This document shows positions 22,259 through 63,247 of a DNA stretch of 64,000 nucleotides, one piece after another; the stretch's first letter is position 1, and the number at the start of each line of letters is the position of its first letter. The stretch is taken from the NCBI GenBank assembly GCA_025449115.1, contig JAHLKC010000101.1:81600-145599 (forward strand). The letters are read 5' to 3'. The translations under genes were made by a program, and so were the position numbers. The DNA comes from Chytridium lagenaria. Its lineage: Eukaryota > Chytridiomycota > Chytridiomycetes > Chytridiales > Chytridiaceae. The notes under the pieces were generated by a model, which was not told the origin of the DNA, did not search any database, and saw only the letters and a list, made by a program, of their open reading frames with translations.

Positions 22259-22654
22259 ATGGTTGGGAATCCGCCGTGGACTTTCGAATGAAGTGACATG
22301 TTTTTGTTGATACTTTGAATTCAATTGGCGCGCTTTTACTTGATCTCGAGCTGTAACGTGAGCTTGATTTTAGGAAGTCTCATGTTTCATGCGCATGAGG
22401 ATCCCTATACAACGGGGTATTTCACCAAAGCCTTCACTCCATTCTTCATTTCACAACGTTTCTTTTTGGTTTCGATAATGGCGGAGCCTATTGAATACCG
22501 ACGCCCTCAAACTTCTATTAGTAACGGCACAGCTTTCACGATAAAGCGTCTTTTCAATATGAATACAAAAATAAATAACGCGCCACAGAGTTACAACCAA
22601 TAACTATATTTTAACTAATCATCCGCTCTAAAAAAACCACCGCAACATAGTTTT
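22259..22654. other. intergenic between convergent genes
   Basis: It contains a 92-codon open frame (22325-22603) that has no recognisable domain and no sign of conservation. Otherwise nothing seen. Confidence 0.4.
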
Positions 22655-24875: not shown

Positions 24876-24981
24876 GGTAGAAAGAGTGAAGAGCGAAGGG
24901 AAGGATGTGGTTCAATATCTCTAACGCTGTCGTTTTTGAGAAAGAATGTATGAAGAGCTTCGCAGTAGAGAGAGTGACCCT

Positions 24982-25274
24982 CCTTTTATCCTCACAGGTC
25001 CGATTCGGAGCTGAATCATGGCTGCTGAATCACGAAATCTTCTGCGAGCCTTTGTGGTTGGAGAGAGACGGTGAGCCATCCCATCAATGCAAATCGTCTT
25101 GCTGAGGGTTGATCCTTCTTTCCTGCATTTTGATGGGTAGGACGCTCTGGATCATGGGTCTTCGATCTCTCCTTTCAAAGCCGCTCGCTTGCGAATCTTT
25201 AGGAAAGCGAGGAGATTTATTGGTGATGCGTGTTCCTAGAAGACTGACAGCGCATATCCACCCATCATATTGCA
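24982..25274 (-). promoter_or_regulatory. shared promoter module of G1
   Basis: In gene orientation these appear: an inverted outer element (plus strand CCCATCATATTGCA at 25261-25274), the main element CCCATCAAAATGCA (25137-25124), a block with GATTCAGCTCCGAATCGG, and a TATA-like GATAAAAGG at 24990-24982. The main element is 262 bp and the TATA-like box 115 bp upstream of the ATG. The same arrangement is present before the other four family members. Confidence 0.6.
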
Positions 25275-25850
25275 GCATCCCTGCTCTGTGCTCATTGTAG
25301 CATCGATCACCTGGATGCGAGGAGGGTTGAAGACGATCCTCTTTGCAGAAGAAAGCGCATGGCAAAACATTGGAAAAAGATTGTGTCCGAAACTCAGTGG
25401 CCTTCACCAGTACCCTGAACACGTCGCGTAGAACGTGATGATGGAAAAATATGAGCACGGCCTTTCCGATGAATTTAATTCCAGGTATGCCACAAGACGG
25501 TGTAATGACGGTCTTATTATCCGTCTGGAAGCTTTTTCAGCACTCGACGTCGATCCCAAAAACAATTGCAGCATGCATATTTCCATGGACCCACTGATCA
25601 TGCCCCGTCATAAAGCATGTTACTCGTTTCAATAACTCGTTTAAGAACTTTGTCCTTAAAAATCAGCGCGTATTTATGAACCAAAAGATCTGGCGTTTTA
25701 TGTGAAGAGGGCTGTTGGAAGAAACGCCGTCAAAAAGGAAGCCGTTAATTACCGTATTTTCAGAGTACGCACGACGTCATGGGGGGGGGGAGATGATTTC
25801 GAGCTGCTGTCATAACGGACACGAGCCAGAGTTGTTTTATCAACCCTAAG

Positions 25851-27062
25851 TAGCTATGAAGATAAATATGGGATTAAGCCTAGTCAATGCTGCAGGCATT
25901 TTTGCGACACATAATAATATGCTATCGTGCCCAAGAAGAGTCAACGCACGAAGACTCATATATTTATAATTATGTAAAAAAACAAATAAAGTCACTCATC
26001 CGAAATACCACCCATAATTCCTTCCCACATCGACGTCAGTAAGAATATTCACTACAAGCAACGCATCAAACTACCCACCCTACCTTTACACCCATCATTA
26101 TAACCTGATCAGCACAAGAAACGTTTCACTCCGTCTTCTAAAATAATCCCATTCCTTCCCACGATGTCTTTAAAATTACATTCACTAAAGTCGACATTAC
26201 CAGCAGCCATCGAGCTACCTAAGCCCCGTTCATATCAGTCATCTGAATTCTCGTTCCTGGTGACCTCAACGTTTCTTCCAAACGTTATCCACTAAATCCA
26301 CGTTCCACCGTATTCCTCCCCATATCATCTCAATAACTACATTGACTGTCCTTTCAAACTACGAGTCGATCTACGCTAGATATCCGTCATACACATTATC
26401 CAAGCCTGAAGAACACTAGACACGATCCCCACGTCCCATACATCTCTTCCAGACGTCACGCGCCACGATATTCCGTCTCCACCGATTTTCTTTCTCTAGA
26501 TCATTCTCTCCTATCTACACGTCTTCCGGCTTAGCCCGAATCCGGGGAGTCTTATGCTTTTTCCCGCAATCTCCAGTTATATGGAATGCGTGTGATGGCA
26601 AGTGCCGTTGATGATTTAGCCTGAACTTACTGTGTTCATTAATAAGGAATTTTTGATGCGCCGGATGATGCGGAGTCCATGTTAGGATCGGTAAAGGAGA
26701 GGTTGGACATAGAATAATGACGAGCCGCAAGGCTTCATACTTTCCTTGCAAAGGCTCGCTACTCAACGGAAAAAATAATAAATAGACCCAAGTTAATGTA
26801 AAAAAGGAAAAAAAAAAAAAGTTTACCGTAAAAGTACTGGTATTTCATCGTCCTCTAGATAAAAGCAACAGGAGCAGCGAAATATTCCAAATTGATTAAA
26901 ACAACGATTAAAACAAAACAAGGAATGAGCAACCTTTCGTAAACCTAATATATTGACATGTGCATCAAAATAAACCTCCAAACAGCCACTCCCCATCCCG
27001 ATCCGACCACCATCAAAAACACTAACATCATCGTTTTCTATCCTTAAGCATGAACAGGTAGT
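25851..27062. other. intergenic, 1.2 kb
   Basis: AT-rich sequence with scattered pyrimidine runs. An 83-codon minus-strand open frame at 26515-26766 shows no domain. A poly-G run occurs just left, at 25783-25792. Nothing else recognised. Confidence 0.4.
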
Positions 27063-32083: not shown

Positions 32084-33464
32084 ATGCCTTTCTCAAGCCT
32101 CGCAAACTTGTGCGAAGACGGGATAATGCCATCAAATTTAAGAGTATGATGGCGACTACATGGAAGACTACCTTGTTAATTCAATGATCATAGTGGGAAA
32201 AGAGACTATGAGTCCGGAGAGCGTAAGATAGTTTCCATCGTTTTTATTTTAATCTTTTTTTTTTGATATTAAATACCGTCCACGCTTGTAAATAGTATAA
32301 GCTGGGCTGCGAGAAGGCCTGTGTCGCTCTTCGACGTTTGACGAAAACTCTCGACAAATGGCAAGCACATGCGATAATGATCTTGAGGACGCTATCAAAT
32401 ACTTTGCGGCAAATCTAACGGATGGTGTTCAGCTTGTTGAAAAGGTAGGCTTACATTCTTCAAATTGTTTATCTAAATCAGATATAGTCCGACGATGAGT
32501 GTGTTGGGAGCGCCGAGACTTTGACCGACGAAGCCCTTCGTTTTTCGGTAAGATATACGATTTATCGTGAGCTGTATATTCACATATTTGGTATATAGAA
32601 TGCGACTTGTAACATAGGAGTGATATCAGGGCGTCCTTCGGGAATCGGCGGTACGGGCTCCGATGCAGGTGGTTATGCCTCCGGTCAGGACTCCTTTGTA
32701 AACGAGGGCAGCAGTGATGTCGAGGAAACGAATTATATAATGGCAACCGAGGTTGCCCCTTCCACCGCTGCCGTCGACAGCCTTCTCTGCAATCATTTTG
32801 GAGTCTGAACTTTTTGATCTCGAAACGGAGGTCCCCGGCAATTCCATCAACGATGCCGACGTCCCTGCCGAATTTAAGGACCGTTCTTTTGGGCGAACTC
32901 CCTGCCGAACATTGATTTTGAGGAGGTTATTGCTACCACTCTAGGTTATTGGGAGAAACTAGGGATAACTCAGAGTTGACGTCTCTATTCCCACGTTCCT
33001 TCGTACCTAAACTTCACCGCCGATATTCCTCGTATGGCAATTCCACGCAGAGCTGAATGCAGCGAGGTTGACTATGGCGCTTAGAAATGGCAACGAGGCT
33101 GAGGCCGCTGCTATGAAACGTGAGGGCTTCTTGTTGATTTCCGTTGTTTTCTTTTTTTATATTTTAACCATATTACGACTCTTCCCACACATAGGTTCAC
33201 GAAGAAGGCCTTGATGATGAATCTAAAGTAGCTATACAGCTCGTCGCAAACCCTTACATGAACTTGGATGCTGTTGTTCCTCAAGCGGTTATTGACGCGG
33301 AGGTTGACGTCGCGACACTGTTGATGGCGGTTCAGTTGGGCAACGATGCGGAAACCCTTTTCTTGAAGTTTTCTCAGTCAAAGCGGATGGATTGTTCTGA
33401 GGAGCCAAGATATTTGAGGAAGGCGCCTTCTCAGGAGGCGTTTCGGTGTAAATCATTTGTGTGA
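32084..33464 (+). pseudogene. family member G5, probably degenerate
   Basis: Exon 1 begins MPFSSLANLCEDGIMPSN and then needs two frame changes to reach SMIIVGKETMSPES. Exon 2 is YKLGCEKACVALRRLTKTLD and then, in another frame, DAIKYFAANLTDGVQLVEK. Exon 3 is SDDECVGSAETLTDEALRFS. Exon 4 begins NATCNIGVISGRPSG. A later block contains DVPAEFKDRSF. The 3' exon reads VHEEGLDDESKVAIQLVANP and ends at 33464. Splice sites are kept between blocks although frames are broken inside them. It is the most damaged of the five copies, even allowing for sequencing error. Confidence 0.5.
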
Positions 33465-34613
33465 CGGTTTATAAGGCGCAGTCGGCATTGTTTGAGGAGC
33501 GCCTACTGGATTTTTCTGTTTGAATACACTACACTTTTAGCGCAAAATTGTGAGTGCGGTTTTCTCTATGTGTGGGGGTTTGTGTAAAGGCACACCGTAT
33601 ATTCCCTAACATTAGTGAAACTAAATTTAGTGTAAATCCGCGGATATGGATGATTTTAGAGTATTTTCACTAGCCTCTGTTACGCCACTAGTCAACAATA
33701 GGAATTTATACTTGACATCAATGCGAATTAGGCGTAGTTTTTAGTAAGCGCCAACTTCGGTGTATTCAGTAGTGTCTATCTTCACGACTCAGAGTAATTT
33801 TGTAAACTTCAGCAATTGTATTATTTACATTTCATATGTTTAACACAAAGATTGCATAACAGTGTCTACCGTGAGTCGTTTTTACACCACCGTTGTTGCG
33901 AAACTTTGTGTGAGTTTACAACTTTCAGCATGGATTTTACACTGACCTCCTTAGTCACTTTAGTGTAAAATAGCACTAGTCTCGGTATTCGACTTCACTT
34001 TAAGATTTATAACGAGGTGAGGTTAGTGGGGGAAAATAGAACTATTGTGTTTTCATACCAACCTGTGTCCAGGATCGATCCAAAACATATGTGAGTCGAA
34101 TATGCTTCCTCCTCGCAGGCCTTCATTGGGAAGATTCCTTCAGAGTTCGTGATTGATTTTTCGCGTTAACATGGCCCGTGTGAAGGCATGATTGCAGACT
34201 AACTGTACATTCAAACTAAAAAACGTTTAGGTCTAGAAATGCATGGTCAACACCGACATCAGGAAGGTCTGCAACGAAGATCAATTTTAAGGTTAGAACA
34301 GTCAGCATTTCGTCCCTACACACAACTATATTCAAAGAGGGATTGAAAATCTCCCGATTGCGCTCCATGGCTACGTGGCAATCATTTACAGTCGAGTCCA
34401 ACAGGGCTTTGAGGAGTAAATTATAGAGCGCGTCGATCTTTAGCGCAATTTTCATAAGGTTTCCAGACGGTTATTCCAAAGGTCTCAGAGAATCTCTAGA
34501 TCTTAGTGCGCAGCTCCCGCTTAAGTTTCAGCTACCCTTCATCCTTACGTCGTGTTAATCATTCTGCGGTTAGCTGGCTTGCTTTGTAAAAACATCACCC
34601 GCCCTGCACAGTC
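33465..34613. other. intergenic, 1.1 kb
   Basis: No coding sequence recognised. Several TTAGTGTAAA/TTTACACT-type words recur between 33620 and 33975, including one perfect inverted repeat. The right part is the promoter region of the multidomain peroxidase gene. Confidence 0.45.
33934..33971. repeat. 10-bp perfect inverted repeat
   Basis: ATTTTACACT at 33934-33943 and AGTGTAAAAT at 33962-33971 are separated by 18 bases. Related words occur nearby (AGTGTAAATCC near 33628). It could be an eroded MITE end. Confidence 0.55.
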
Positions 34614-37600
34614 ATGACAACGAGGCACTATGAGAGGGGACAAGGGTCACACGTGCCGACATCACACGTAGCCGTCTCGACGTCTCTCGTTCTCCTTCTA
34701 GTTCTCATCGGCTTTTCTTCAGCTCAAACAAACGTCACCGAAGTCCAGAGCTACAATGGCTACGGTAACAACAGGATGAACCCTACCTGGGGTGCGGTTG
34801 GTACACCTTACATAAGGATGGTCCCACCGACCTATGGACCAAATCAATGTAGGTTCAGAAGTACCTTGCAATTATTATTTAGACGAACTTTTTTTGCAGC
34901 TCCAGGAGGTTCAACCAGACCGAACGCGCGACTTATTTCAAACCAGCTCTTTTCGAAGAGTCCATTTCTTTACTCAAACAAAAACGTGACGGACTTTTTG
35001 CCGAATTGGGGGCTCCTTCTTCATATGGACGTCATGGTGACTGAGCGAAACCAATGTAAGCCCACTTTTAGCAATCGAAGGGCACTAATAGTATGTGTAG
35101 CCGATCCTTTCCACATCCCCGTAACCTCACCCGACCCTTTTTTCAATCCCGCCGGTCTCAGCAACATCAGCATCAGCATGAATCGATCTGTACACATTGC
35201 TGTAGACGCGACGAGAAATCTTCGAGTTCATGTTAATTCTGTGTCCAGTTTTATTGATGGCAGTAGCCTCTATGGACTTACTAACGAAACTGCAATGAGT
35301 ATGAGGAGTTTTAGAGATGGGCTGCTGAAAAGTCAGAATTTCTCGACGGGAGAGTTTCCAGTAAAGACTACTGGAGGCATGTTCTTATTTCCTTTAATGG
35401 ATGCCAATAGGACTCCTGTAAGTATCTTGTGTTATCTTTTTTCTTTTCGTAGTCATCACTTATTGAATTCCCATTTTTTCTACAATAGCAAATCCTTGCT
35501 ATTCACATCGTATTGCTCAGAGAGCATCAGCGTCGAGCACGAGAAATCAAGGCTGTTTACCCGAATTGGTCTGATGAGCAGATTTATCAAAGAGCTAGAA
35601 GATGGGTCATCGCTATTATCCAAAAAATTACCTATGAACAAGTAAGTTTTTATCGCCCTTCTTCCATCTCACATACATAGTACCTCCCGGTTGTTCTTGG
35701 CGAGCCTCTTGCTCGCTATACCGCCTACAACGATACTATCAACCCACAAGCCGACATATTCTTCACAAATGTTGCCATGCGCTACGGTCACAGCGCAATC
35801 GCGCAGCTCGTAATGCGGTACGAGGAGAACGGTCAAGTCTCTGATGTGGGACATCAGTTAATCCGGAACTGTATTTTTGGATCAAATCCTTGGGATGTGC
35901 AGACGCATGGGGTCGAATCTTTGCTTAGGGGCATGGCCATACAGAAGGAACAGCTGGTAGATGTGAGCGTTGTGGACGATATGAGGGATCATTTTGTTGT
36001 TAGGGGGGTTAAATTAGATTTGCCGGCCATTGATGTGCAGAGGTGAGAAGGTTATACACTTTGGGAATTGCTTTTCAATTCCATATTAAAGAGGCCGAGA
36101 CACTGGGATTCCTGACTACAACACTTGTCGCGAATCGTTTGGTCTTCATCGAGTGTTCCTGTGGTCCGAGATCACGTCGGATATTGACGTACAAATTCGA
36201 TTGAGGCAACTTTACAATGACGATATCAATAGTGTTGATGCCATCGTTGGTAAGTCTTTTCCTTGGAACTGCGTATATACGTAAATTCGATCAACTAAAT
36301 TTGAACTATCAGGTGCAATGGCCGAAAATCATCAGGGATCTGGAGTGCTTGGAGAGCTTTTCGGGGTTTCTATACGGGAGCAGTTTACAAGGTTGCGCGA
36401 TGGAGACAGGTGTGTACAGTTTTGAATTCACCGCACTTCCCAGTTGAAACTTTCGCATAATCTCTGTTACTTGCTTATTATAACATCAAAAATCTCACAC
36501 GTATTTAATGAAGGTTTTGGTACGAGTCTCCGGGCATTCTTACCGACGATGAAAAACTGGCATTATCGAGAATATCTCTTGGCGACATTATCAAGCTCAA
36601 CTCAAGGATCATCGCATACCCAGCAAACCCTTTTCGCACTAGCACCGGCAGCTCCCCCTTATCGCAATCAGCCCCCTCCTCTCCGACAACTTCATCAGAT
36701 TCTTCCCTGATTGAGATGCTGGGTACTCTTAGGTTGACGTGGACGGTGAGGGCTAGTGACGGGATGGTGGATTTTTTGTTTCAGAGCAATGCGTCAGGGT
36801 GGTTTGGATTTGGGATTGGATCGAATATGGTGAACGCAGATATATATTTCGCAACAAAAAGTAGCAACGGGAGTCTCACCGTTATTGATAGTTGGAGGTA
36901 GGACCTGCCCGAGTGTTTCTACGCGAATTAATACCGTTGCTTTTCAGCTCTTCTTCAGGTGCTCCCCAACCCGATACCTCCGTCGGCGGCCAAAACAGCA
37001 TTCAACGAATACAAGACGTAACCTCTTTATACCCAACGTCCCGTCAATCCGTCCAATTTTCGCGGGCTCTCACCACCTCTGACTCCCGTGACGCTGACAT
37101 TCCCAACGGCCCCATCCGTCTCATCTTCGCCTTCCACCCCTCCTCCCATGATTATAGGTACCATGAATCCAACCGTGGTGTAGTAGACGTCAATCTTTAC
37201 GCAAAGGGAGTCAGCCTCTCGGCGTCTGGATCTCCTATGGTGCCCATGAGTTTGAAAATTCTGCATGGGTTTTCCATGTTTTTGGCGTTTGCGGTGATTT
37301 ATCCGGTGGGCATTTTTGTGGCAAGGTATTATACGGATTTAAATAAGTGGGTTGAACTTCATGCAACGTTGATGGCAACGGCGACGTCCGATGTAAGTAT
37401 ACTTTGTAAAGATGCACTTTGCTTTTGGAAAAGATGATGCTTTTTGGCGGAATACCTAGTTTCAATCTTGACTTTGTCGAACTTTTTTTTATTCCCCCCT
37501 GTTTAAAAAAAAAATAACGTGTTATGCCCCACTAACAAATCGTTTTTGAATCTATAGGTTCTTATCACTGCTCTTACCGCCATCATTGGTAGTTACAGCG

Positions 37601-40031
37601 ATTCTGACCATCTTCACGTCCGTCTCGGTATTATCATCGTCGGTCTCGTCTTCACCACCATGTTCACTGGTACGTTGCTTCCAAAATCACCGTTAAATTC
37701 CTTCAGCCTTATATCACCTACATCCGCCTCCTACACCGTATTCTCGGTTTCGGCACCTACGCCTTTGGCCTCGTCACTGGATATTTTGGCGCTGTGGCTA
37801 TTCAGTATGGAGATGAACAAAGTGGTGGATTGCAAAAGCCTATATAGGGTTGGTTGGGTTCATGCCGATCTTGTTGTTTATTTATGGAGAGTTTTATAAA
37901 AGGACGGGGATGGGAGGTATTAAGAATTCCAATTTGCAAAAGGCTATGGCGGGTGATGATAAGAATGAAAAGCTACCGCTTTTTATGTGGGAGGATGTGA
38001 ATCAGAGGGTGTCTTTGGGGCAAAATGGATTATTATTGAAGATACTATATGTAAGTTCATTATTCATATATTAGGATTTTTTTTCACCACTTTTTGTTTT
38101 AAAAAGCTCTTACTTTAGCTCGTTGTCTTGTAATTTTTATCGCCTTGTTATGTTCATAAGGATCTTTGACTAAAAGTTAATTTTCTCAATTTCTCTCTCC
38201 AGATGATATCGAGTCGTTCATTGATAGGCACCCAGGTGGCTCTGCCATTATCCGCAACTACATTGGTTTGGACGCAACCAATATCTTCAAAGGCAATACG
38301 CGAAGCACCATGGAGAGATCCCGTAGTAAAAAGAAGAGCCAAGCCGACAAGTCCGCTTTTCGAGGTTCGAGCCACAAACACTCACGTTCGCTGTATATCT
38401 TCTCGGATCTATGGCCGTTGGACGACTTCGTAAAAGCGAAGACGACGATCACTCAGAGGTCTCTCACGAGAAAGCAGCGTAGTATCGAAAATCAACGTGA
38501 CTCAACGTCCTCAAAGTATCTTAATGAGAACCCGAAGTTGGAAGGACAACGAGGACACTCTTCCTCAAAGTCCTCAACGTACCGCAGACCCGCTATTTCT
38601 GCAAACCAATTCCGTACATATACCGTGTCTACGAAAGCACAAATTACTGGCGCTGGCGCAAAGTACCCCGTATATCATCTTCGGTACGACTTTGAACGTG
38701 TGGATGACAAATTCACGGTGAAGCCGGGACAGTCAGTGTCGTTCCAGCATGTGGATGAGGACGGGAAGATTGTTACTAGGTCTTATACTCCGCTAAGATG
38801 TGATAATGAGGGGGGTATTGACTTTTTTGTTAAAATGTACGGAGGGGAGATGACCAAACATCTCTTGGTGACTAGATCGATTAGAATCAGAGGACCGGTG
38901 CAATCAATGGAAGTATGAATCGAAATGGAATTAATGGTTGCTGGAAGGTGCTCGGACTTATTGCTGGAGGAACAGGTTTGTACCATTTTCTTCCATGTGA
39001 CTGTCAACATTCTATAAGAAGTCGCAAAGATCCCTTCCCCCATTTTCTTCTTCTACTTACTTATAATTTCATTATTTCGCAGGCCTTAGTCCCATGCTAC
39101 TCATGATCGACTATCATCTCAAATATGGCTCTCGCGATCCCGTCAGTAATCGTCCTACATTCAAGATCCACCTACTCATTATAAACCATTCGGACAGCGA
39201 CATTTTTGCCGCCAAAATCGTCGAAGACATAGAAAAAGCTTGTGAAGGCGCCCTTACTGTCAATTACATGATCAGTACTCCTTCTCAGCAATATTTGCCG
39301 AAACCTGGAATCATCATTGGAAAACTTTCCCAAGAGGTTATTGTGTCGACTATGCCTAGGCTACCCGTGGATAACAAGTCTCCTACTCGAACACCTTCCG
39401 TTATTCCCACTCAAAGACAGGGAGTAGGCCATCCGAGCGTTTTGACTCATCGTAAAAGCTTCACTTTCAGTCCCAACCTTTCCGATAAAGGTAATATACT
39501 CAATATGATTTTATTTTAATCAACTTAAGGCATCATTGAAGCCGGAGAAAACGGAAGTATAGACGCTGAGATCCCAGCTCTATCTACTAAAAATCCCAGT
39601 AGCCCCGCTTATCGCAGTAATACTCGTGATGACGCTGCCATTCGCTTCAATATCCGCGAATCTGGTGGTGCCACTGGTATGCCAATGTTGATGCGTGAGG
39701 ATTCGTCGTATAAACGCAGAAGCTATGAAGACAATAACAGAATGACTCAAGCACGGTCTAGAACGTTTAGCATACAACAGTCGGTCCTCGGGAATGACGT
39801 GGGGCTGCCATCACCCGCAGCACAGGAAGTAGATCTTGACTTGGATATGTGTCGAAATATGGCTATGATGGTTTGCGGGTGAGTTTAAAATATCCTTGTT
39901 CCTTTTCGTCGATATTCGCGGACTTCAGATGCTAATATTTTCTTCCCTCAAGACCCACCATGATGAACAACGCAGTGAGCGATCTCCTTCAGGACATGGG
40001 CTACCCAGCAGATATGATCTACACAATGTAA
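34614..40031 (+). CDS. haem peroxidase-DOMON-cytochrome b561-cytochrome b5-FAD/NAD(P)H reductase fusion
   Basis: A 14-exon model (34614-34848, 34900-35055, 35101-35417, 35489-35641, 35681-36042, 36092-36249, 36313-36409, 36514-36897, 36948-37392, 37558-38050, 38203-38975, 39083-39490, 39530-39878, 39953-40031) gives about 1470 residues. A hydrophobic N-terminal segment is followed by an animal-type peroxidase (residues ~45-545: NPTWGAVGTPYIRMVPPTYG, FIDGSSLYG, ARRWVIAIIQKITYEQYLP, proximal RYGHS, QRGRDTGIPDYN). Then a DOMON domain (~560-690: GWFGFGIGSNM and YHESNRG as Met/His ligands). Then cytochrome b561 with four His (LHGF, ELHA, HLHV, LLHR). Then cytochrome b5 (DRHPGGSA, HKHS). Then a reductase with IVTRSYTPL, LIAGGTGLSPM and CGPTMMNNAVSDLL. 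Four single missing bases (about 37683, 37845, 38050, 38915) are needed. Inferred role: passing electrons from cytosolic NAD(P)H across a membrane to an outer haem peroxidase. Confidence 0.8.
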
Positions 40032-40376
40032 ATTCGACGTGAACATTGCAAATACCAAAAAGTGTAATAAATGTCCGGATAAGACTACCTAGCGCGGTCT
40101 CTTCGCAGTAACGTTCTAATCCATGCGTTGTCAGAGTAGCGACGTCCGAAACAGTTTGTGTTTTGACACCATTTTTCGAGATGCTTCCCTCTCCACCCAT
40201 CTTCAATCCATCTCTCGAGCACCCAGCTGATGAATGCATTGACGCTGAGCAAAGAGGCTGGCTGTCATCGGATGCGTGAAAAGGTTGATGACGTTCCTAT
40301 AGGTACACTCATCCAGTAAATCTGCTTGCAGACAGCTCCGCAAACGAGTGGGATCGAATGCCCGAAATACTCACCA
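40032..40376. other. intergenic between the multidomain peroxidase and G2
   Basis: Includes the 3' flank of the peroxidase gene. The duplicated G-family upstream sequence begins at about 40375. Nothing else recognised. Confidence 0.4.
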
Positions 40377-40534
40377 CCCATCAAAATGCAGGAAGAGAAG
40401 GATCGACCCTCAGCAAGAAGATTTGCTCGTTGATGGGATGGCTCACCATCTCTCTCCAACCACAAAGGCTCGCAGAAGATTTCGTGATTCAGCAGCCATG
40501 ATTCAGCTCCGAATCGGACCTGTGAGGATAAGAG
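40377..40534 (+). promoter_or_regulatory. shared promoter module of G2
   Basis: CCCATCAAAATGCA (40377-40390) lies 264 bp and GGATAAGAG (40526-40534) 115 bp before the ATG at 40641. The duplicated segment starts right at this element, so the outer inverted element seen for G1 and G3 is missing here. Confidence 0.55.
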
Positions 40535-40640
40535 AGGGTCACTCTCTCTACTGCGAAGCTCTTCATACATTCTTTCTCAAAAACGACAGCGTTAGAGATA
40601 TTGAACCACATCCTTCCCTTCGCTCTTCACTCTTTCTACC

Positions 40641-42821
40641 ATGATGCCTCTCGACATGCTGGCAAACCTTTGCAACGACGGGATGACGCCCTTGACCGAA
40701 ACTCAGTCTATGATGGCGACTATCCTAGATTGCAACATCCTGAACTCGATGGTGATTATTGGAAAGGAGACGATGAGCCAGAGACCGTAAGATCCTTGCT
40801 TACTTCATGTTCTTCCACTCCTTTTCCCAGTCTCTTACCTCCTCTTGCCGGTGTCTAGCACAAAGTGGGCTGTCTCCAGGCCGCTGACGCTTTGAAACGT
40901 CTGGGAATGTGCGCTGGTGATTTGGAAAGACACGCGACAAAGGCATCGTGGCCGCTATTCAATACTTTGCGTTTAATTTAACTGACGGGGCTCCATCTGC
41001 TGCCTCCAAGGTAGGCTCACAGGTAAACTTGGCTTTTCACATCTTTATTGCTTATCTAACGACGGCCTTTAGATTGACGATGGATGTGACGCGAGCGCAG
41101 AAACCCTGGTGGACGAAGCTTTGAGGTGTTCGGTAAGACCAATTGGTCTTTGGAGTGTGGTCAACTTACCATTTTCGTTGATATAGAATGCGACATACAG
41201 CGCGGGAGAGGTATCCGGTCGTCCTTCAGAGGCTGAGGTTTTGGCTTCTGATGCTCCTACTGTTGTCCCGACTCATGAAGTATCCATTGCGGTAAGCTTT
41301 ACGTTTATTTTTGTATCTTTCTTGCCTCGTTTCTGTGTTTTTACATTCTCACTTCTAATGTTTCCTCCTTGTACGTAATAGACGTCGGAACCTCCTTGCA
41401 CTGCTTCGTCAGCCTTCGAGGCTCACGGAGAGCCCGCCGAGAATGGCTTATTGGGAATCGCTACGAGGAGTCAGAAAGTCGCTGTCCCGAGGTTGGCGAA
41501 ATGGCCTCCACAGTATTGCCGACCGTTTCAACATGAACGACCGGTTCGCATCAATTGACGATGATGATGACTAATTGTAAGTAAAGATGACATTGAAGCA
41601 TTTTCTGTTCCGTCCTTCTACATAGTTACACAGTTCTTACATTATCATATAAATCAGAGTTTTTGTCGTGATCAATTGCAGCCGGCTCTTGAGACCCATC
41701 AGGTTGGAAATCACGATGTACAAGCAGGAGGATGATGGAAACGGGCGTGACAACAGTGAGGACACTAACCGATGTTGGTGCGGAGGGCCCTATGGAGACC
41801 ATTGATGAAGATTCAGACGAAATGTACGATTTGGGTCGCTTCCGCTTAACTTAAATGTACGTAGTTTCATTTACGCGCCTGGTCGTTTGTTCCTTTTTTT
41901 TTAATGCTTGGTTTTCATAAAGGCTGCTGCTGGACATTCCGCAGTTACCGATTTTGCGTCTCCTATTGATTACAACACCCCGTCTGCTACCGATACCGTC
42001 CCTGATGCCTTTTTTGACAATGTGTTCTGGCGGACAACGATGGCACCTCTAGACGTCGATCTTCCCATTTTGGCCCCTATCGATTCCAACAACAGTTCTC
42101 TCAATCTCATGGAGGCCGACGTCGATGTCCCCAATGGCAAACGCGAGACGATTGAGGAAATAGACGCGGATGTCGACGAGGAGGCTATGGTAAGCTCTTC
42201 TTTTCCACATGATTGTTATTCTTCTTCTTCCTTTGCTTTAAATTAACGTTTGAATGCGCGACTCATTTTTTTTTTTTTTTTTTTCACATAATTTTTATTT
42301 TCTCAGAACGCGACAGACCCACGTCGGCCATGAGGGCGGTGTGGATGTTGTGGAAACGGAGGGCGCGGTGGAAGCCGACGGTGACTTGGTGCCACTGCGA
42401 ATGTTCCCGTGTATCTGGAGGAAGGCGGTGATGACTTTATGGTTAGTTTTTCTATATTCTGCGTAATTTTATTCTTAGCAGTGATGCTGATTTTATAATC
42501 CTTTAGCCACTTGTCAACGCGTCCATGAACCAACTCCCGCGACTTCTCCTGCTAGTAACGTAGACATCACTGAGCCTGTCAAGAACGATGCTATCCCTAT
42601 TCAGGAACAATCCGAGGATATTGGTCATATGATTGTAAGTTCCGTTTGCAAAAACCGTTCTCGCATGTCTAACTTTGATTTTTCAGATGCTTGCTGAGAG
42701 ATTCGCGCTCCACGGTCGCTCGCGACGGGGGAATGGCTGCAGAGGCTCTAGGAATGGCAGGCAACCCCCTTCGCAGGAGGAGCTCCGTCGCATTGCGTTG
42801 GTAACGAGGTTCAAGAAGTAG
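40641..42821 (+). CDS. family member G2 (frame-damaged copy of G1)
   Basis: Nearly identical to G1 in exons and introns: MMPLDMLANLCNDGMTP, GCLQAADALKRLGMCAGDL, CDASAETLVDEALRCS, then FFDNVFWRTTMAPLDVDLP and MEADVDVPNGKRETIEEI, ending PPSQEELRRIAL. Single-base losses relative to G1 and G3 occur in exon 1 (just before the donor) and exon 2 (after CAGDL), with further changes in exon 5, where the donor region is altered. Either this copy is inactive or the assembly has errors. It lies directly upstream of an F-box-like/ankyrin gene, as G3 does. Confidence 0.5.
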
Positions 42822-42932
42822 AGATTAAGTTGCAGCTGTTCTTAGAAGCGTGGACTTTTAAAGCAAATAAAGGTTTTTTTTAACATTGATTGATGTAGAC
42901 CAAAATTTTCTTTTGTTTGGGCTTCTTCTGAG

Positions 42933-44354
42933 ATGCAAGGGAGGCCGTCGTCTCGGGTTCAACCACCCCTTTCCATCTTACCTCTAGAGTTACGGCACAA
43001 GATCCTTCGACTCACAGAGGATGTTGAACTCAACGTTACCATAAAGCTTGAATGCCTTTGGCTGGATTTGCCCAGACTTCACCCTTCCGACCCAACAACG
43101 GCATTTGACCGTCTCCATCCAGCTTCACAATACTTTCCCATCTCCGTGGAGATTGCTGAAAAACTTGATAATGAACCTATCAACATCACAGACGAAAGTA
43201 CTGCCATCATTGGTTGGCACATCCGATATCAACAACGCAGGTTCTACATCTATTTGCACGAGGTGGCAGAACATGGCCGGTTAAAAGTCATCCAAATGTT
43301 TCATCGTTTCCGGTCAACTCTGTTCACTTCCAATGTCATGGATGGAGCTTGTAGGAATGGTCACATTGATATCGTTAGATTTCTTCACACCTACCGCTCG
43401 GAAGGGTGCTCTACGGCCGCGATGGACGAAGCGGCAGAGAATGGTCATTTGGAGGTGGTGCAATTTCTGCACGAGAATCGAACGGAAGGCTGTACAGTAG
43501 CTGCCATGGATGGAGCAGCGGCCTACGGGTATTTGAATGTGGTTATATTCTTGCATGAAAATCGAGACGAGGGTTGCTCCAAAATGGCAATGTGTCGTGC
43601 TGCAAGATCTGGGTGTTTGGATGTCGTTCAATTCTTACACGAAAACAGGACGGAAGGATGTACCAGAAAAGCAATGGAGTGGGCGGCCGCCAGTGGGCAT
43701 CTTGATGTCGTCAAGTTTCTTCATGAGAATAGGACGGAAGGAGGCGGGACGGGTGCGATGGATTGGGCAGCTCATAACGGGCAACTGGAGGTCTTGTGTT
43801 TTCTTCATGAAAACAGAGGAGAAGGTTGTACTGTTAATGCAATGAATTGGGCGGCCTTGCGTGGACATTTGGAGGTCGTGGAGTTTTTGCATAATAATCG
43901 AAGTGAGGGCTGCACGACTGCTGCGATGGATGGGGCAGCCAAGAAGGGGCATTTGGATGTTGTAAGGTTTCTGCACGAAGAACGAACAGAGGGCTGTACG
44001 ACTGCTGCTATGGATGGGGCGGCTAAAAACAGACATTTGGAGGTTGTTATATTCTTACATGAGAACAGGAAAGAAGGCTGCACGAAAGGTGCGATGAATT
44101 TCGCTGCAGAGAATGGATGGTTGGCTGTGGTTCGATGGTTGCATGAAAACCGAACAGAAGGTTGCACGGCTTGGGCCATGGACAGCGCAGCTTCGTATGG
44201 AGACTTGGAGATGGTTCGGTTCCTAGTTGAAAATCGAACAGAGGGATGTGTCAAGGATGCTCTTGCTAGGGCTGCTGAGAATGGACATGATGAGATAGTG
44301 GTGTTTTTAAGGAGCAATCTCAGAAAGTGCCCGCAGGCCTGGGAAACATTTTAG
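42933..44354 (+). CDS. ankyrin-repeat protein with F-box-like N-terminus
   Basis: One uninterrupted 473-residue frame. The N-terminus LSILPLELRHKILRLTED has the LP-E-I-L spacing of F-box-like motifs. From about residue 125 to the end, ankyrin repeats of 33 residues have the consensus AMDGAAKNGHLEVVRFLHEN followed by RTEGCT. This Cys-containing style is frequent in chytrid ankyrin families. Such proteins are often substrate adaptors of ubiquitin ligases or interaction scaffolds; the target is unknown. No intron. A second, related gene lies at 48160 in the same orientation. Confidence 0.85.
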   Translation: MQGRPSSRVQPPLSILPLELRHKILRLTEDVELNVTIKLECLWLDLPRLHPSDPTTAFDRLHPASQYFPISVEIAEKLDNEPINITDESTAIIGWHIRYQQRRFYIYLHEVAEHGRLKVIQMFHRFRSTLFTSNVMDGACRNGHIDIVRFLHTYRSEGCSTAAMDEAAENGHLEVVQFLHENRTEGCTVAAMDGAAAYGYLNVVIFLHENRDEGCSKMAMCRAARSGCLDVVQFLHENRTEGCTRKAMEWAAASGHLDVVKFLHENRTEGGGTGAMDWAAHNGQLEVLCFLHENRGEGCTVNAMNWAALRGHLEVVEFLHNNRSEGCTTAAMDGAAKKGHLDVVRFLHEERTEGCTTAAMDGAAKNRHLEVVIFLHENRKEGCTKGAMNFAAENGWLAVVRWLHENRTEGCTAWAMDSAASYGDLEMVRFLVENRTEGCVKDALARAAENGHDEIVVFLRSNLRKCPQAWETF

Positions 44355-45144
44355 GTGGTTATTCGGTTTTAAATACTTTTGGATGTGTTCATTTATTTGT
44401 TTAGAAAGCGACTGGTATTGCTTTAGTTTTTTTTTCCCCCAAAGTTGCAAATAAATGAGTGTTGGTGCATGAGTATTCTTGGGCACGACTTTATATTATA
44501 ATACCGTCGCGTGTATGTCTACATGGACTATGCTTAACCCCATAATTATTTTTATAGCTGCTTACGAACAGGGCTGTTGGTAAAAGCGCTCTGGCTCGTG
44601 TCCGTTATGACAGCAGCTTGAGATCGCCTCCCCCACGTTGTCCAGTACTCTGAAAATACGATTAGTTACGGCTTCCGATTGACGGCATTTCTTCTCAACA
44701 GCCTTCTTCACATACAACGCGCGCCAGATCTTTTGGTTCATAAATGCGCGCTGATTTCTAAGGACAAAAACTCTTGGACGAGTTTATTGGAACGAGTAAC
44801 ATGCTTTATGACGGGGCATGATCAGTGGGTCCATGGAAATATGCATGCTGCAATTGTTTTGGGATCGACGTCGAGTGCTGAAAAAGCTTCCAGACGGATA
44901 ATAAGACCGTCATTACACCGTCTTGTGGCATACCTGGAATTAAATTCATCGAAAGGCCGTGCTCATATTTTTCCATCATCACGTTCTACGCGACGTGTTC
45001 AGGGTACGGGTGAAGGCCACTGAGTTTCGGACACAATCTTTTTCCCAATGTTTTGCTCTGCGCTTTCTTCTGCAAAGAGGGATCGTCTTCAACCTTCCTC
45101 GCATCCAGGTGATCCATGCTACAATGAGCACAGAGCAGGGATGC

Positions 45145-45437
45145 TGCAATCTGATGGGTGGATATGCGCTGTCAGTCTTCTAGGAACACGCATTACCAAT
45201 AAACCTTCTCGCTTTCCTAAAGATTCGCAAGCGGGTTTGAAAGGAGGGGGATTGAAGACCCATGATCCAGAGCGTTCCACCCATCAAAATGCAGGAGAGA
45301 AGGATCGACCCTCAGCAAGAAGATTTGCTCGTTGATGGGATGGCTCACCATCTCTCTCCAACCACAAAGGCTCGCGGAAGATTTCGTGATTCAGCAGCCA
45401 TGATTCAGCTCCGAATCGGACCTGTGAGGATAAAGAG
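45145..45437 (+). promoter_or_regulatory. shared promoter module of G3
   Basis: An inverted outer element, TGCAATCTGATGGG (45145-45158), is followed by the main element CCCATCAAAATGCA (45281-45294), GATTCAGCTCCGAATCGG, and a TATA-like GGATAAAGAG (45428-45437). Distances to the ATG at 45543 are 262 and 115 bp. Confidence 0.6.
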
Positions 45438-45542
45438 AGGGTCACTCTCTCTACTGCGAAGCTCTTCATACATTCTTTCTCAAAAACGACAGCGTTAGAG
45501 ATATTGAACCACATCCTTCCTCCGCTTTCCACTCTTTCTACC

Positions 45543-47731
45543 ATGATGCCCCTCGACATGCTGGCAAACCTTTGCAACGACGAGATGACGCCCTTGAACG
45601 AAAACACGGAGTCTATGATAGCGACTATCCTAGATTGTAACATCCTGAACTCGATGGTGATTATTGGAAAGGAGACGATGAGACCAGAGACCGTAAGATC
45701 CTTGCTTCTATGTTCTTCCACTCCTTTTCCCACGTCTCTTACCTCCTCTTGCCCCTGTCTAGCACATGGTGGGCTGTCTCCAAGCCGCTGACGCTTTGAA
45801 ACGTCTGGGAATGTGCGCTGGTGATTTGGCAAAGACACGCGACAAAGGCATCGTGGCCGCTATTAAATTCTTTGCATCGAACTTAACCGACGGGGTTCCA
45901 TCTGATGCCTCCAAGCTAAGCTCACAGGTAAAGTTGGCTTTCTCATATTCTTTATTGCTTATCTAACGACTGCTTTTTAGATCGACGATGGATGTGACGC
46001 GAGCGCAGAAACCCTGGCGGGCGAAGCTTTGAGGTGTTCGGTAAGACCAATTGGTCTTTGGAGTGTGGTCAACTTACCATTTTCGTTGATCCAGAATGCG
46101 ACATACAGCGCGGGAGAGGTATCCGGTCGTCCTTCAGAGGCTGAGGTTTTGGCTTCTGATGCTCCTACTGTTGTCCCGACTCATGAAGTATCCATTGCGG
46201 TAAGCTTTACGTTTATTTTTGTATCTTTCTTGCCTCGTTTCTGTGTTTTTACATTCTCACTTCTAATGTCTTCCTCCTTGTATGTAATAGACTTCCGAGC
46301 CCTCTTGCACCGCTTCGGCAGCCTTCGAGGCTCACAGGAATTCTGCAGAGAATGGATTATTGGGGAATCGCTATCGAGGAGTCTGAAAGTCGCTGTCCCG
46401 AGGTTGGCGAAATGGCCTCCCACAGTATTGCCGACCGTTTCAACATGAACGACCGGTTCGCATCAATTGACGATGATGATGACATTGTAAGTAAAGATGA
46501 CATTGACATTTTCTGTTCCGTCCTTCTACATATTGTCTACACAGTTCTTACATTATCATATAAATCAGAGTTTTTGTCGTGATCAATTGCAGTCGGCTCT
46601 TGAGACTCCATCAGGTTGGAATCACGATGAGTACAAGCAGGAGGATGATGGAAACATGCGTGACAACAGTGAGGACACTACCCTCGATGTTGGTGCGGAG
46701 AGCAAGGCCCTATGGAGACCATTTTTGAAGATTCAGACGAAATGTACGATTTGGGGTCGCTTGCGCTTAATTTGAATGTACGTAGTTTCATTTACGCGCC
46801 TGGTCGTTTGTTCCTTTTTTTTTATGTTTTTCATAAAGGCTGCAGTTGGACATTCCGCAGTTACCGATTTTCGTCTCCTATTGATTACAACACCCCGTCT
46901 GCTACCGATACCGTCCTTATGCCTTTTTTGACAATGTGTTCTGGCGGACAACGACACCTCTAGACGTCGATCTTCCCATTTTGGCCCCTATCGATTCCAA
47001 CAACAGTTCTCTCAATCTCATGGAGGCCGACGTCGATGTCCCCAATCACAAAAGCGAGACGACTGCGGAGGTGTCCGGGATGTTGACGAGGAGGTTATGG
47101 TAAGCTCTTCTTTTCCACATATCTTTTTCTTCTTCCCTTGTTAAAAATTAACGTTGAATGCGCGACTTATTTTTTTTATATATGTTTTTTTTCAGTCGCT
47201 TGCCGAAGATCTGGTGAACGCGTCAGATGCTAACGTCGGCCATGAGGGCGGTGTGGATTTTGCAGAAACGGAGGGCGACTGGAAGCCGACGCTGAGCTCA
47301 TGGCCACTGCGAATGTTCCCGTGTACCTGGAGGAAGGCGGTGATGACTTTACGGTTAGTTTTTCTATATTATGCGTAATTTTGTTCTTAGCAGTGATGCT
47401 GATTTTTAATCCATTAGCAACGTGGTCACGCGTCAATGAACCCACTCCCGCGACTTTCCTGCGATCAACGTAGACATCACTGAGCCTGTCAAGAACGAGG
47501 CTGTCACTATTGAGGAACAATCCGAGGATATTGGCCATATGATTGTAAGTCCCGTTTGCTAAAAACCGTTGTCGCATGTCTAACTGTGATTTTTTAGATG
47601 CTTGCTGAGAGATACGCGCTCCACGGTCGCTCGAGACGCGGGAATGGCTGGAAAGGTTCGAGGAATGCTAGGCAACCCCCTTCGCAGGAGGAGCTTCGTC
47701 GCATTGCGTTGGTAACGAGGTTCAAAAGTAG
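45543..47731 (+). CDS. family member G3 (near copy of G1)
   Basis: Same ten-exon plan as G1. Intact blocks are MMPLDMLANLCNDEMTP, GCLQAADALKRLGMCAGDLA, KTRDKGIVAAIKFFASNLTD, CDASAETLAGEALRCS, SAGEVSGRPSEAEVLASDAP and ADRFNMNDRFASIDDDDD. The seventh exon lacks a base after TDF and loses several further bases. The eighth and the last exon (VTRFK then stop) also differ by single bases. Exons 1-5 are clean apart from one break in exon 5 near 46370. Expression would test whether the later breaks are real. Confidence 0.5.
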
Positions 47732-48159
47732 AAAAGTATGTAAGGTGGTTTTTTTTACAGCGGATGATTAGTTAAATAAAATCATTGGTTTTAACTCTGC
47801 GGCCTTCTTTATTTTTCCGTTTGGATTGAAAGAAGCTTTAACGTGAAAGCTGTGCCCTTACTAATAGAAGTTTGCGGGCGTCGGTTTTCAATAATCACCA
47901 TCCAGATACGGCGGCGTTAAAGAAAATTGTAACAGATCAAGAATGAGCGTTGCGGGAATGCGCCAGATCAGATTTACCATATGGCTGTTTTACTTTTTTA
48001 AAACGCTTGATACATGCATGTTGTATCGAGAGAATCTGGTAAACGCGAGCAGCGCGCGTATGGAAATGAAAAGGACCTGTCATCCCTCAATAAATGATGT
48101 CACTCGATAATGATGGTACAACTATCATCAAAACTTGACTGTGAGAAATTGAGGCCGTC
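47732..48159. other. intergenic
   Basis: Includes the G3 3' flank and the promoter region of the second ankyrin gene. No feature recognised. Confidence 0.4.
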
Positions 48160-49451
48160 ATGATGGCTTTGTCTTGCACAGAAGGAGCCTCAGCATCCTC
48201 TACCCGAATTCAACCTCTCGGCATGCTTCCTATTGAAGTCCGTCGCTCCATTCTCGATCTCACAAATGACCTTCACCTTGCCGTTAAGCTTGAAAGCATA
48301 TGGCTCAACATCCCTCACTCAAGCCTCGACATCATAACAGCCTTTGATCCTTTTCAACCACCCTCAACGTTCTTTCCCGTTTCCTACAAGATGGCCAAAG
48401 ATCGTCGTCAAAGATACTGGATTAACATCACTCGGGAGAGCAACGCCATCATTGCCTGGCACAGTCATTCCGGAATTCGAACATGGCACATATCCTTGGC
48501 TGACCTTGTGGAATCTGGCCGTTTAAAAGCTATACAAATCCTTCATCACCATGAGTATTCTCTGTTTACGTCTGAAATCATGGACGATGCCTGCAAGGCT
48601 GGTCATCTTCACATTGTCCGATTCCTTCACACCCATCGCACAGAAGGATGCACCACATTCAGCATGGATGTAGCAGCCGGGAGAGGGGATTTGGAAATGG
48701 TTCGATTCTTGCATGAGAATAGGAATGAGGGTTGTTCCACTTTAGCGCTAAATTGGGCATCGAGTCATGGCCATCTTGACGTCGTTCGGTTTTTACATGA
48801 ACATCGAAAGGAAGGAGCCACGACATACGCAATGGATCAGGCAGCTAGTCATGGTCATTTCGAGGTCGTGAGGTTCCTGCATGAACACCGCTTAGAGGGC
48901 TGCACAACGAAAGCGATGGATTTGGCGGCCAGAAATCGTCATCTGGATATCGTCCGGTTTTTGCATAAGAACCGATCAGAGGGCTGCACGACAGAGGCGA
49001 TGGATTCGCTGCCAAATATGGGGATTTGGAACTCGTGGATATTTACACGATAACCGAACTGAGGGGTGTTCGATAAAAGGCCGTGCTGACGGCGGCCTAT
49101 CATGGACATTTGGACGTGATCAAGTTTTTACATGAAAACAGCTCTGTCACCTGGACCCCCTATGTGATGGATTTAGCGGCCCTGGGTGGGAGCCTAGACG
49201 TTGTCCGGTTTTTGCATGAGAATCGGTCCGAGGGGTGTACAGAAATGGCTATGGATGGAGCTGCTCTTGGTGGGCATTTGGACGTGGTGCGCTTCTTGCA
49301 TGAGAACAGAGCTGAGGGATGCTCATATAAGGCTTGGGATCTGGCTGCTGGTTTTCGGCATTTCAACGTGGTGTCGTTTTTATTAGAAAACCGGAAAGAG
49401 TTTGTTGGATGGGATGATCCAACGTTACCGCCGAGATTTCGGCATTCTTAA
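48160..49451 (+). CDS. second F-box-like/ankyrin-repeat protein, frame-shifted
   Basis: Paralogue of the gene at 42933. The N-terminus has LGMLPIEVRRSILDLTND (F-box-like), then ADLVESGRLKAIQILHHHEY and ankyrin repeats such as AASHGHFEVVRFLHEHRLEG. The first frame stops at 49053. Within 70 bp of the break near 49010 three one-base changes occur (two losses and one gain). They restore repeats DLELV, DNRTEGCSIK and YHGHLDVIKFLHEN, and the array then continues to 49451. Because the array resumes in perfect repeat register, the breaks are recent or artefactual. Confidence 0.7.
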
Positions 49452-63216: not shown

Positions 63217-63247
63217 GGTTGGTTTGAAGCTGAGTGAAAAATTCCAG

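Follow-up and report, generated by a model that had tools for sequence, protein, structure and literature searches.

One gene of Chytridium lagenaria, on the forward strand of the 64,000-nucleotide stretch of DNA that we analysed (the window), appears to join a haem peroxidase fold, a DOMON domain, a cytochrome b561 core, a cytochrome b5 domain, and a FAD/NAD(P)H reductase in a single chain, and we lean, with somewhat better than even confidence, towards reading its product as an NAD(P)H-driven transmembrane reductase or oxidase with a nonperoxidatic head, resembling the dual oxidases (DUOX) by convergence. The features legible in the sequence are a signal-like N terminus, the peroxidase fold, the Met and His of DOMON, the four His of b561, both His of b5, and a module of the b5 reductase type. 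The protein appears to represent a second independent invention of the design known from animal dual oxidases, in which an NAD(P)H-fed electron pump across the membrane is topped by a peroxidase head; here it is built with b561, DOMON, and b5 parts. An earlier note on this DNA had proposed the gene, the module order, and the electron chain, all of which find support, as does conservation in other chytrids; its active peroxidase at the end of the chain is not supported for this protein.

An independent exon model gives a 14-exon gene at positions 34614 to 40031 of the window, with exons totaling 4409 bases, 13 introns (all GT-AG, 39 to 165 nt), and a stop codon at 40029-40031, reproducing the exon sum that had been reported before. 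Exon 1 (34614..34848) carries the start codon, a hydrophobic signal-peptide-like stretch at residues 19 to 37 (hydropathy peak, 2.23), and the start of the peroxidase domain. Exons 1 to 9, covering the peroxidase, DOMON, and the start of b561, form 769 open codons without any frame fix. The peroxidase-DOMON join lies inside exon 8 (36514..36897), in which the end of the peroxidase, a Ser/Pro linker, and the start of DOMON share a single open frame, and the DOMON-b561 join lies inside exon 9 (36948..37392), in which the end of DOMON and the first b561 helix do the same. The b561-b5 and b5-FAD joins lie inside exons 10 and 11, respectively, and both are open in a diverged paralog, C228. With every junction inside an exon that is open in the window or in the paralog, the modules appear to belong to one continuous gene, as had been claimed.

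Scanned against Pfam with an X placed at each frame break, the protein spliced from the window gave five domain calls, all above the Pfam cut-offs. An_peroxidase spans residues 45 to 532 (exons 1 to 8, 34746..36631; 1.1e-116), and DOMON spans 36725..37200 (exons 8 and 9; 2.3e-18), with its ligand Met codon at about 36827 and its His codon at 37162-37164. The cytochrome b5 domain (37980..38435, exons 10 and 11; 1.1e-12) has HPGG at 38229-38240, its second His in HKHS at 38373-38381, and a basic insert between the two haem His. It is followed by FAD_binding_6 of the NADH-cytochrome b5 reductase type (38615..38915; 1e-6; RSYTP at 38778-38792) and by the first part of the NAD(P)H-binding domain (NAD_binding_1, 38945..39290; 2.8e-5), whose AGGTG spans exons 11 and 12. 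The remainder of the gene (39291..40031) encodes a long insert, rich in Ser, within the NAD(P)H domain, followed by CGP (39871-39878 plus 39953 after splicing) and the C terminus. HPGG with a second His, RxYT in the FAD part, GGxG in the NAD part, and CGP together mark a b5-reductase-type module. The b561 core (37246..37910, five helices expected) has its haem His codons at 37264-66, 37360-62, 37615-17, and 37734-36; Pfam did not call Cytochrom_B561 in the window copy, with its broken frame in exon 10, and did call it in the genome's own paralog at 28.1 bits (cut-off, 23). In that paralog, the b5 part matches cytochrome b5 structures in the PDB and the FAD part matches NADH-cytochrome b5 reductase 1 (2e-8), and NAD_binding_1 was not called, the sequence used having been cut short within that domain. 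The DOMON part found no match among PDB sequences at E up to 1. Exon model, Pfam calls, and b561 His with the paralog match thus bear out the five modules in the order and at the positions first described.

The haem ligands of the proposed chain are conserved. In the alignment, the DOMON ligand Met is present in 24/24 rows and the ligand His lies nearby in 22/24 (the remaining 2 are gapped), the four b561 His are kept in 22/22, 22/22, 22/23, and 21/21 of the rows covering each, and the first b5 His is kept in all 23 rows covering the site. Modules and ligands together support the NAD(P)H/FAD-b5-b561-DOMON chain. The joined architecture is also kept in other chytrids and so is not absent from relatives: peroxidase and b5 occur together in single predicted proteins in 21 of the 52 listed relatives (19 from 16 chytrid taxa and 2 from a green alga), 16 of the 52 combine peroxidase, DOMON, b5, and FAD_binding_6, and a search with the reductase part only returned nine matches, every one of which also bears a peroxidase domain. 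The chytrid relatives whose peroxidase domain is complete are longer than 1200 residues; the shorter P0011 and P0051 lack parts. We found no description of the full architecture in the open-access literature searched (subscription papers lay outside it), nor any characterised equivalent, in agreement with the earlier note.

The head is altered at the site of peroxide chemistry. Its profile match and its proximal His fit an animal-type haem peroxidase of the peroxidase-cyclooxygenase superfamily; its distal side does not. Its best PDB match is Dictyostelium peroxinectin A (PDB 6erc; 2.4e-85), and the proximal haem His of RYGHS (35789..35791) is present in 18/18 chytrid and 32/32 other rows, as is the calcium Asp in 16/16 chytrid rows. 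Peroxidases need the distal Gln, His, and Arg to cleave H2O2. Among the rows covering each column, chytrids retain the distal Gln in 1/16, the distal His in 1/16, and the distal Arg in 1/18, whereas the other rows retain them in 30/30, 30/30, and 31/31; the window protein and its paralog have Leu, Met, and Asp in these columns. In place of the canonical WGQxxxHD, the window reads WGLLLHMD (35007..35030), with a His at 35022-35024 and, where the distal His would stand, a Met (35025-35027). A His one residue ahead of the distal His position occurs in 13/16 chytrid rows versus 0/30 others, at what we take to be the site of the haem-ester Asp (Asp94 of MPO), and the 15 rows of this shifted-His group, 2 of which do not cover the motif, are set apart from the remaining rows by a single branch with support of 100/99. 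Distal-side Met ligation of the haem fails as a general rule, the distal His position holding Met in some shifted-His rows and Leu or Phe in others. The distal residues are intact in a Cladochytrium relative (P0017), which combines peroxidase, DOMON, b5, and FAD_binding_6 with canonical WGQxxxHD and the distal Arg and Asn, and in the alga Cymbomonas (P0020), which has the Gln, His, and Arg without the Asn; EukProt relatives retain Gln, His, and Arg, and P0045 (896 aa) has a canonical distal site. The head thus seems, as judged from its residues, to be a peroxidase fold minus those that peroxidases use to split H2O2. A distal side with a shifted residue could in principle allow other peroxide chemistry.

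The b5 and reductase modules are predicted to be cytosolic and the peroxidase and DOMON domains to lie outside, a topology drawn from the five helices and the greater number of Lys plus Arg residues in the cytosolic loops; the signal-like stretch and the helix count likewise suggest an extracellular head. By hydropathy, four of the five helices in the window copy exceed the threshold; the fifth scores only marginally in the paralog (1.42). Acidic and basic residues are equal in number, two each, in the first loop predicted to be cytosolic. The gene would then yield a single plasma-membrane protein in which electrons would pass from NAD(P)H through FAD, haem b5, the inner b561 haem, and the outer b561 haem to the DOMON haem, the NAD(P)H/b5 route replacing the cytosolic ascorbate that drives the plant DOMON-b561 protein. 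The outermost domain would be a former peroxidase. Since the fold, the calcium Asp, and the proximal His are retained, it may still hold haem, and since the distal Gln, His, and Arg are lost, we propose that the protein works as an NAD(P)H-driven reductase or oxidase: O2 (to superoxide or H2O2) or ferric or cupric ions would be reduced at or near DOMON, and the head, as in dual oxidases, would cap the protein, offer an acceptor site, or act in docking. An ancestor with an intact distal site probably wired electrons into its own peroxidase or supplied peroxide to it, a form that may still be visible in Cladochytrium and Cymbomonas. These two pair at 93/92 in the peroxidase-half tree and are unpaired in the reductase-half tree; because the latter lacks an outgroup and its branches are very long, it was not used to judge a single origin of the Cymbomonas and chytrid fusions. 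The genome also encodes NOX/FRE-type ferric-reductase domains (eight matches, seven over the cut-off), so the function could reside in other proteins instead.

DUOX, which forms Family 7 of the peroxidase-cyclooxygenase superfamily, shares with the chytrid protein an N-terminal peroxidase-like domain, a transmembrane haem core, a FAD/NAD(P)H module, and an altered peroxidase active site; in DUOX the head is extracellular and the FAD/NAD(P)H module cytosolic, locations that are predicted for the chytrid protein. In the sections of the sources cited here, DUOX peroxidase domains are described as having lost activity, with an obscure role for the modified domain (PMC4420034), and as lacking critical residues (PMC6411640), and the earlier phrase "dual-oxidase-like device assembled from unrelated parts" agrees well with these descriptions. 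The parts differ: the chytrid protein has b561, DOMON, and b5 instead of a ferric-reductase/NOX core and EF-hands (a Pfam scan found Ferric_reduct in neither the window protein nor the paralog, and no EF-hand family), and it keeps the proximal His and has lost the distal side, whereas DUOX is described, in the part of the source cited, as having no proximal His (PMC4420034). Like the plant CYBDOM proteins HYP1 and CRR, the chytrid protein combines a DOMON Met/His pair with four b561 His (the b561 profile being matched through the paralog), and one-electron export is expected of it. In the portion of PMC10784544 cited here, HYP1 takes electrons from ascorbate, passes them through the plasma membrane, and can reduce both Fe(III) and Cu(II); its His pairs are modelled as 1-3 and 2-4. 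To this plan the chytrid protein adds the N-terminal peroxidase fold and a C-terminal b5/NAD(P)H reductase, so it may do without ascorbate as its donor. Its C-terminal half follows the order b5, FAD_binding_6, NAD_binding_1 of b5/b5-reductase fusions, which are Ncb5or- and nitrate-reductase-like, and differs in being joined to a transmembrane b561 and in having inserts between the b5 haem His and, a long one, in the NAD domain. Peroxinectin A, the nearest solved structure by sequence, is a peroxidase domain only (511 residues in the solved chain), with a WGQFxxH distal motif in the alignment. The cytochrome domain of cellobiose dehydrogenase has a DOMON-fold haem b with Met/His ligands; the chytrid protein differs in being membrane anchored and in having no flavin dehydrogenase of that type.

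Alternatives turn mainly on the head. It might be haem-free and inert, serving in folding, adhesion, or docking on a metalloreductase of the CYBDOM type that carries its own NAD(P)H reductase, for which the ferric/cupric reductase HYP1 (PMC10784544, in part) and the inactive peroxidase domain of DUOX (PMC4420034 and PMC6411640, in part) offer precedents; a proximal His invariant in the chytrid rows goes beyond what a mere scaffold needs, and we consider this reading unlikely, though the least so of the alternatives. It is rather doubtful that the fold has become a haem electron-transfer or O2-reducing domain at which the wire would end, with the proximal His kept, the shifted His at the haem-ester Asp position, and Met, Leu, or Phe at the distal His position. 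The chytrid-specific His shift, its well-supported branch, and a low dN/dS in the peroxidase part (0.064 against the paralog over 366 codons, with dS near saturation) are consistent with such a terminus, but the variable distal position leaves no conserved ligand. Similarly doubtful is its extension to an oxidase that holds one flavin and five haems in a single chain, in which a peroxidase captured at the end of the wire and rebuilt, through loss of the distal acid-base residues and gain of the shifted His, would receive NAD(P)H electrons by way of FAD and four other haems and hand them to O2 or an extracellular acceptor, convergent with DUOX, free of NOX parts, and with living relatives (Cladochytrium and Cymbomonas) that keep the intact site. 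The earlier proposal, in which a working extracytoplasmic peroxidase draws on cytosolic NAD(P)H through its own chain, we judge improbable and, having compared the distal sites, have dropped for this protein. The retained proximal His and calcium Asp and the canonical or near-complete sites of P0017 and P0020 would suit it, but Gln and His are gone in the window, the paralog, and 13 of the other 14 chytrid rows that cover the site, Arg is gone in 17/18, and nonchytrid rows keep all three. The earlier note had cited the proximal peroxidase motif only. One family with intact, shifted, and wholly lost distal sites makes a nonperoxidase role of the head testable by comparing homologues.

Frame breaks complicate the window assembly in exon 10 (three) and exon 11 (one), the four that had previously been bridged with single joining bases. 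These are real breaks in this assembly; comparison with a twin contig and the paralog revealed three more in exon 11 that jointly keep the frame, so the linker sequence first read there was probably out of frame. The near-identical copy on the twin contig reads through three of the four and has breaks of its own, and paralog C228 keeps an open frame across b561, b5, and the FAD part; the breaks therefore look like assembly indels. That neighbouring genes or a decaying pseudogene were taken as one is very improbable, and although the exon 10 and 11 breaks, one of them common to both copies, would favour it, we reject it on the open junction exons, the twin contig, the excess of gap openings over mismatches between the copies (86 versus 61 in 9645 aligned columns), a dN/dS of 0.088 against the paralog (839 codons, dS near saturation), and the joined relatives in 16 chytrid taxa. 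A DNA search over a longer stretch, aimed at showing the twin contig to be the other haplotype, used a probe that proved to be repeated, with 14 matches, including matches on C56 at 86 and 92%.

When the gene at 34614..40031 on the forward strand was rebuilt independently of the exon list in an earlier, sequence-only note, it again comprised 14 exons totaling 4409 bases, separated by introns of 39 to 165 nt that are all GT-AG (13/13). A Pfam scan of the window protein, with X placed at frame breaks, called An_peroxidase (residues 45-532), DOMON (564-684), Cyt-b5 (914-968), FAD_binding_6 (1097-1172), and NAD_binding_1 (1190-1279), all over the curated cut-offs. In the window copy Pfam did not call Cytochrom_B561, which was over its cut-off in the diverged paralog on contig C228, so that the b561 assignment in the window copy rests on the paralog call, the four haem His residues, and the alignment. 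The b5/FAD part of the paralog matches structures of cytochrome b5 and NADH-cytochrome b5 reductase. Each module join falls within a single exon: those between peroxidase and DOMON (exon 8) and between DOMON and b561 (exon 9) are open in the window gene, and those between b561 and b5 and between b5 and the FAD domain (exons 10 and 11) are open in the paralog. The Pfam calls, the paralog b561 call, and the 14-exon model thus bear out the five-module order, with splice sites, that the earlier note had proposed, and its exon total was reproduced.

Exons 1 to 9 splice to 2307 bases and encode 769 residues without a stop or a change of frame, running from the hydrophobic N-terminus through the peroxidase and DOMON domains to the second of the b561 haem His residues. 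Frame breaks occur in exon 10 (three) and, by comparison with the other copies, in exon 11 (four, three of which jointly preserve the frame). The four breaks noted earlier are real in this assembly, but there are seven in all, the three frame-keeping ones in exon 11 having gone uncounted. A search of the genome (41.9 Mb, 356 contigs) gave 12 An_peroxidase matches at three loci, namely, the window gene, a near copy on contig C56, and the paralog. The near copy is 97.9% identical to the window sequence (9645 aligned columns), and its gap openings (86) outnumber its mismatches (61); because this excess of gap openings would fit uncorrected long reads, the frame breaks of the window gene look like assembly indels. 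The C56 copy is open at three of the four breaks noted earlier and carries breaks of its own; the fourth, in exon 10, is common to both copies and was judged from the paralog alone. The C228 copy is a true paralog (78% identity to the window gene in the peroxidase domain) that is interrupted by separate breaks in its first half but reads open throughout exon 10, from b561 to b5, and exon 11, from b5 to the FAD domain, and its exon borders, where they could be followed by eye, match those of the window gene. Over 839 aligned codons, window gene and paralog differ with dN of 0.115 and dS of 1.31 (near saturation), giving a dN/dS of 0.088; the value was 0.064 in the peroxidase blocks (366 codons) and highest, 0.159, in b561, and b5 gave none because its dS was saturated. 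The indel-rich near copy corresponds to 32686-42274 and is possibly the other haplotype, and genes elsewhere in the assembly can be expected to contain frame breaks.

Protein searches, each confined to a length window and scoring about 8000 top candidates, listed 52 different relatives with precomputed domains. Peroxidase and b5 occur together in 21 of these, two from the green alga Cymbomonas tetramitiformis and 19 from 16 named chytrid taxa (Dinochytrium, two Phlyctochytrium, Blyttiomyces, Chytridiales sp., Obelidium, Entophlyctis, Rhizoclosmatium, Geranomyces, Lobulomyces, Cladochytrium, Rhizophlyctis, Nowakowskiella, Chytriomyces, Physocladia, and Quaeritorhiza), so the joined architecture does recur in chytrid genomes, where the earlier note had suggested looking for it. 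We assigned the 16 taxa to Chytridiomycota, six from a taxonomy look-up and the others presumptively. Peroxidase, DOMON, b5, and FAD_binding_6 were found together in 16/52 and NAD_binding_1 as well in 10/52; several of the gene models are partial. P0045, an 896-aa EukProt protein from a Trinity transcript assembly, has peroxidase-DOMON-b561 only; the other 30 have a peroxidase domain without b5, and most are unnamed, the named ones being mainly bacterial metagenome bins plus three animals. With the Obelidium reductase half as the query, all nine proteins returned had a peroxidase domain. The Cymbomonas protein P0020 also has a PF16010 call, which we take to denote a cellobiose-dehydrogenase-type cytochrome, and, judged by eye, two DOMON-like stretches. 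The Rhizophlyctis and Nowakowskiella proteins (P0021 and P0027) have no DOMON among their precomputed domains. Nowakowskiella and Cladochytrium belong to one taxonomic order but have very different versions of the protein, so that paralogs or losses are likely.

The peroxidase domains of 50 of 54 sequences were aligned (P0011, P0019, P0044, and P0052, at <330 residues, were dropped), and active-site columns were placed using alignments to myeloperoxidase, with its textbook numbering and residue roles, and peroxinectin A. Chytrid rows retain the proximal His (18/18) and the calcium Asp (16/16) and have the distal Gln in 1/16, the distal His in 1/16, the distal Arg in 1/18, and the Asn that pairs with the proximal His in 1/18. 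The 32 other rows, which include near-duplicates, have the proximal His in 32/32, the calcium Asp in 28/30, the distal Gln and His each in 30/30, the distal Arg in 31/31, and the Asn partner in 26/32; among them, Cymbomonas (P0020) and P0045 are canonical at distal Gln, His, and Arg. The sole chytrid row to retain the distal residues and the Asn is that of Cladochytrium (P0017). A His one residue ahead of the distal position (WGxxxHxD) is present in 13 of 16 chytrid rows versus 0 of 30 others, and Rhizophlyctis and Nowakowskiella have neither the distal nor the shifted His. In these two the distal site was lost differently, with Glu for Gln and Met or Gln for His. Our main departure from the earlier note is here: it had the chain feed an extracytoplasmic peroxidase, but the distal Gln, His, and Arg are missing in nearly all chytrid rows.

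In a peroxidase tree of 46 of these rows (IQ-TREE with a profile mixture; P0014, P0032, P0037, and P0043 were left out), the window protein was nearest its paralog, followed by Dinochytrium and Phlyctochytrium planicorne, which makes a chytrid of that group the most likely source. The 26 rows outside the family fell on one side of a branch (100/98), and the 20 included family rows therefore group together. Further branches set apart the 17 chytrid rows besides Cladochytrium (99/95) and 15 rows of the shifted group (100/99), two of which (P0001 and P0002) lack coverage of the distal motif and were assigned by kinship. With a root among the outside rows, the fusion would have begun with its distal site intact, and a single loss would have preceded the remodelling. 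When each half was analysed in its own tree of 18 rows, the 14 shifted-group rows tested again fell on one side of a branch (96/94 and 99/99), which would follow if the halves are inherited as a unit; branches in the reductase-half tree are very long.

The remaining cofactor ligands were counted in a 24-row family alignment, over the rows covering each site. The DOMON Met is kept in 24/24, with a His within a few columns in 22/24 (the other two are gapped there). The four b561 His residues are kept in 22/22, 22/22, 22/23, and 21/21, the single miss being P0045; the b5 HPGG His is kept in 23/23 and the second b5 His in 21/23, the misses being the two Cymbomonas rows. Conservation extends to the FAD Arg (22/22) and Tyr (21/22), the first and second NAD Gly (17/21 and 21/21), and the CGP Cys (17/20). 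The window protein has a hydrophobic stretch at residues 19-37, and the b561 helices number five in the paralog and four over threshold in the window copy. Predicted cytosolic loops carry 2, 4, and 6 Lys+Arg and 2, 0, and 4 Asp+Glu, and predicted outer loops carry 0, 1, and 1 and 0, 2, and 2, respectively. From these features we infer that peroxidase and DOMON lie outside and b5/reductase inside, in which case b561 His 1 and 3 would sit toward the exterior and His 2 and 4 toward the cytosol, matching the 1-3/2-4 pairing modelled for HYP1 (PMC10784544).

Judged from sequence, the window protein is most likely an NAD(P)H-driven transmembrane reductase/oxidase with a former peroxidase as its outer head. 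With a reductase attached, the DOMON-b561 unit would no longer depend on ascorbate, which serves as the donor in HYP1; HYP1 also offers a precedent for metal reduction (PMC10784544). Candidate final acceptors would be O2, Fe(III), Cu(II), or haem in the head, among which the sequence does not choose. DUOX offers a precedent for a peroxide-producing oxidase whose peroxidase-like head is inactive (PMC4420034, PMC6411640). DUOX is described as lacking the proximal His (PMC4420034), whereas the window protein has lost the opposite, distal side of the haem; the outcome is thus convergent, though the details differ, and the chytrid protein appears to be a separate instance of the dual-oxidase design.

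The fusion proteins are already public, mostly as "hypothetical protein" and three as "heme peroxidase". In line with the earlier note, which knew of no characterised protein with the full order, the open-access literature searched offered no description of a peroxidase-DOMON-b561-b5-reductase architecture. A review of heme peroxidase superfamilies contains no occurrence of "DOMON", "cytochrome b", or "chytrid" (PMC4420034). A NOX-family study reports an unclassified NOX in Chytridiomycota and no such fusion in its text as examined (PMC9421330), and a study of the ferric-reductase superfamily names, in the sections available, FRE/NOX cores rather than b561 as carriers of DOMON or peroxidase-like modules (PMC3591440).

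Around the gene, a segment of ~2.5 to 3.5 kb occurs three times in the window at 88.7 to 91.6% identity (22489-25965, inverted; 40374-42822; and 44449-47893), one copy lying directly downstream of the studied gene; a translated piece of it (45981-46445) matched no Pfam family. Adjoining the repeated segments are two open reading frames (ORFs; 42894-44351 and 48145-49050) that encode ankyrin repeats and share a similar N-terminus. Another ORF (52842-54257) encodes nine Sel1 repeats, and one at the window end (63234-63998) has a metallo-beta-lactamase fold (Pfam Lactamase_B_6) and is presumably an Integrator 11/CPSF73-type nuclease.
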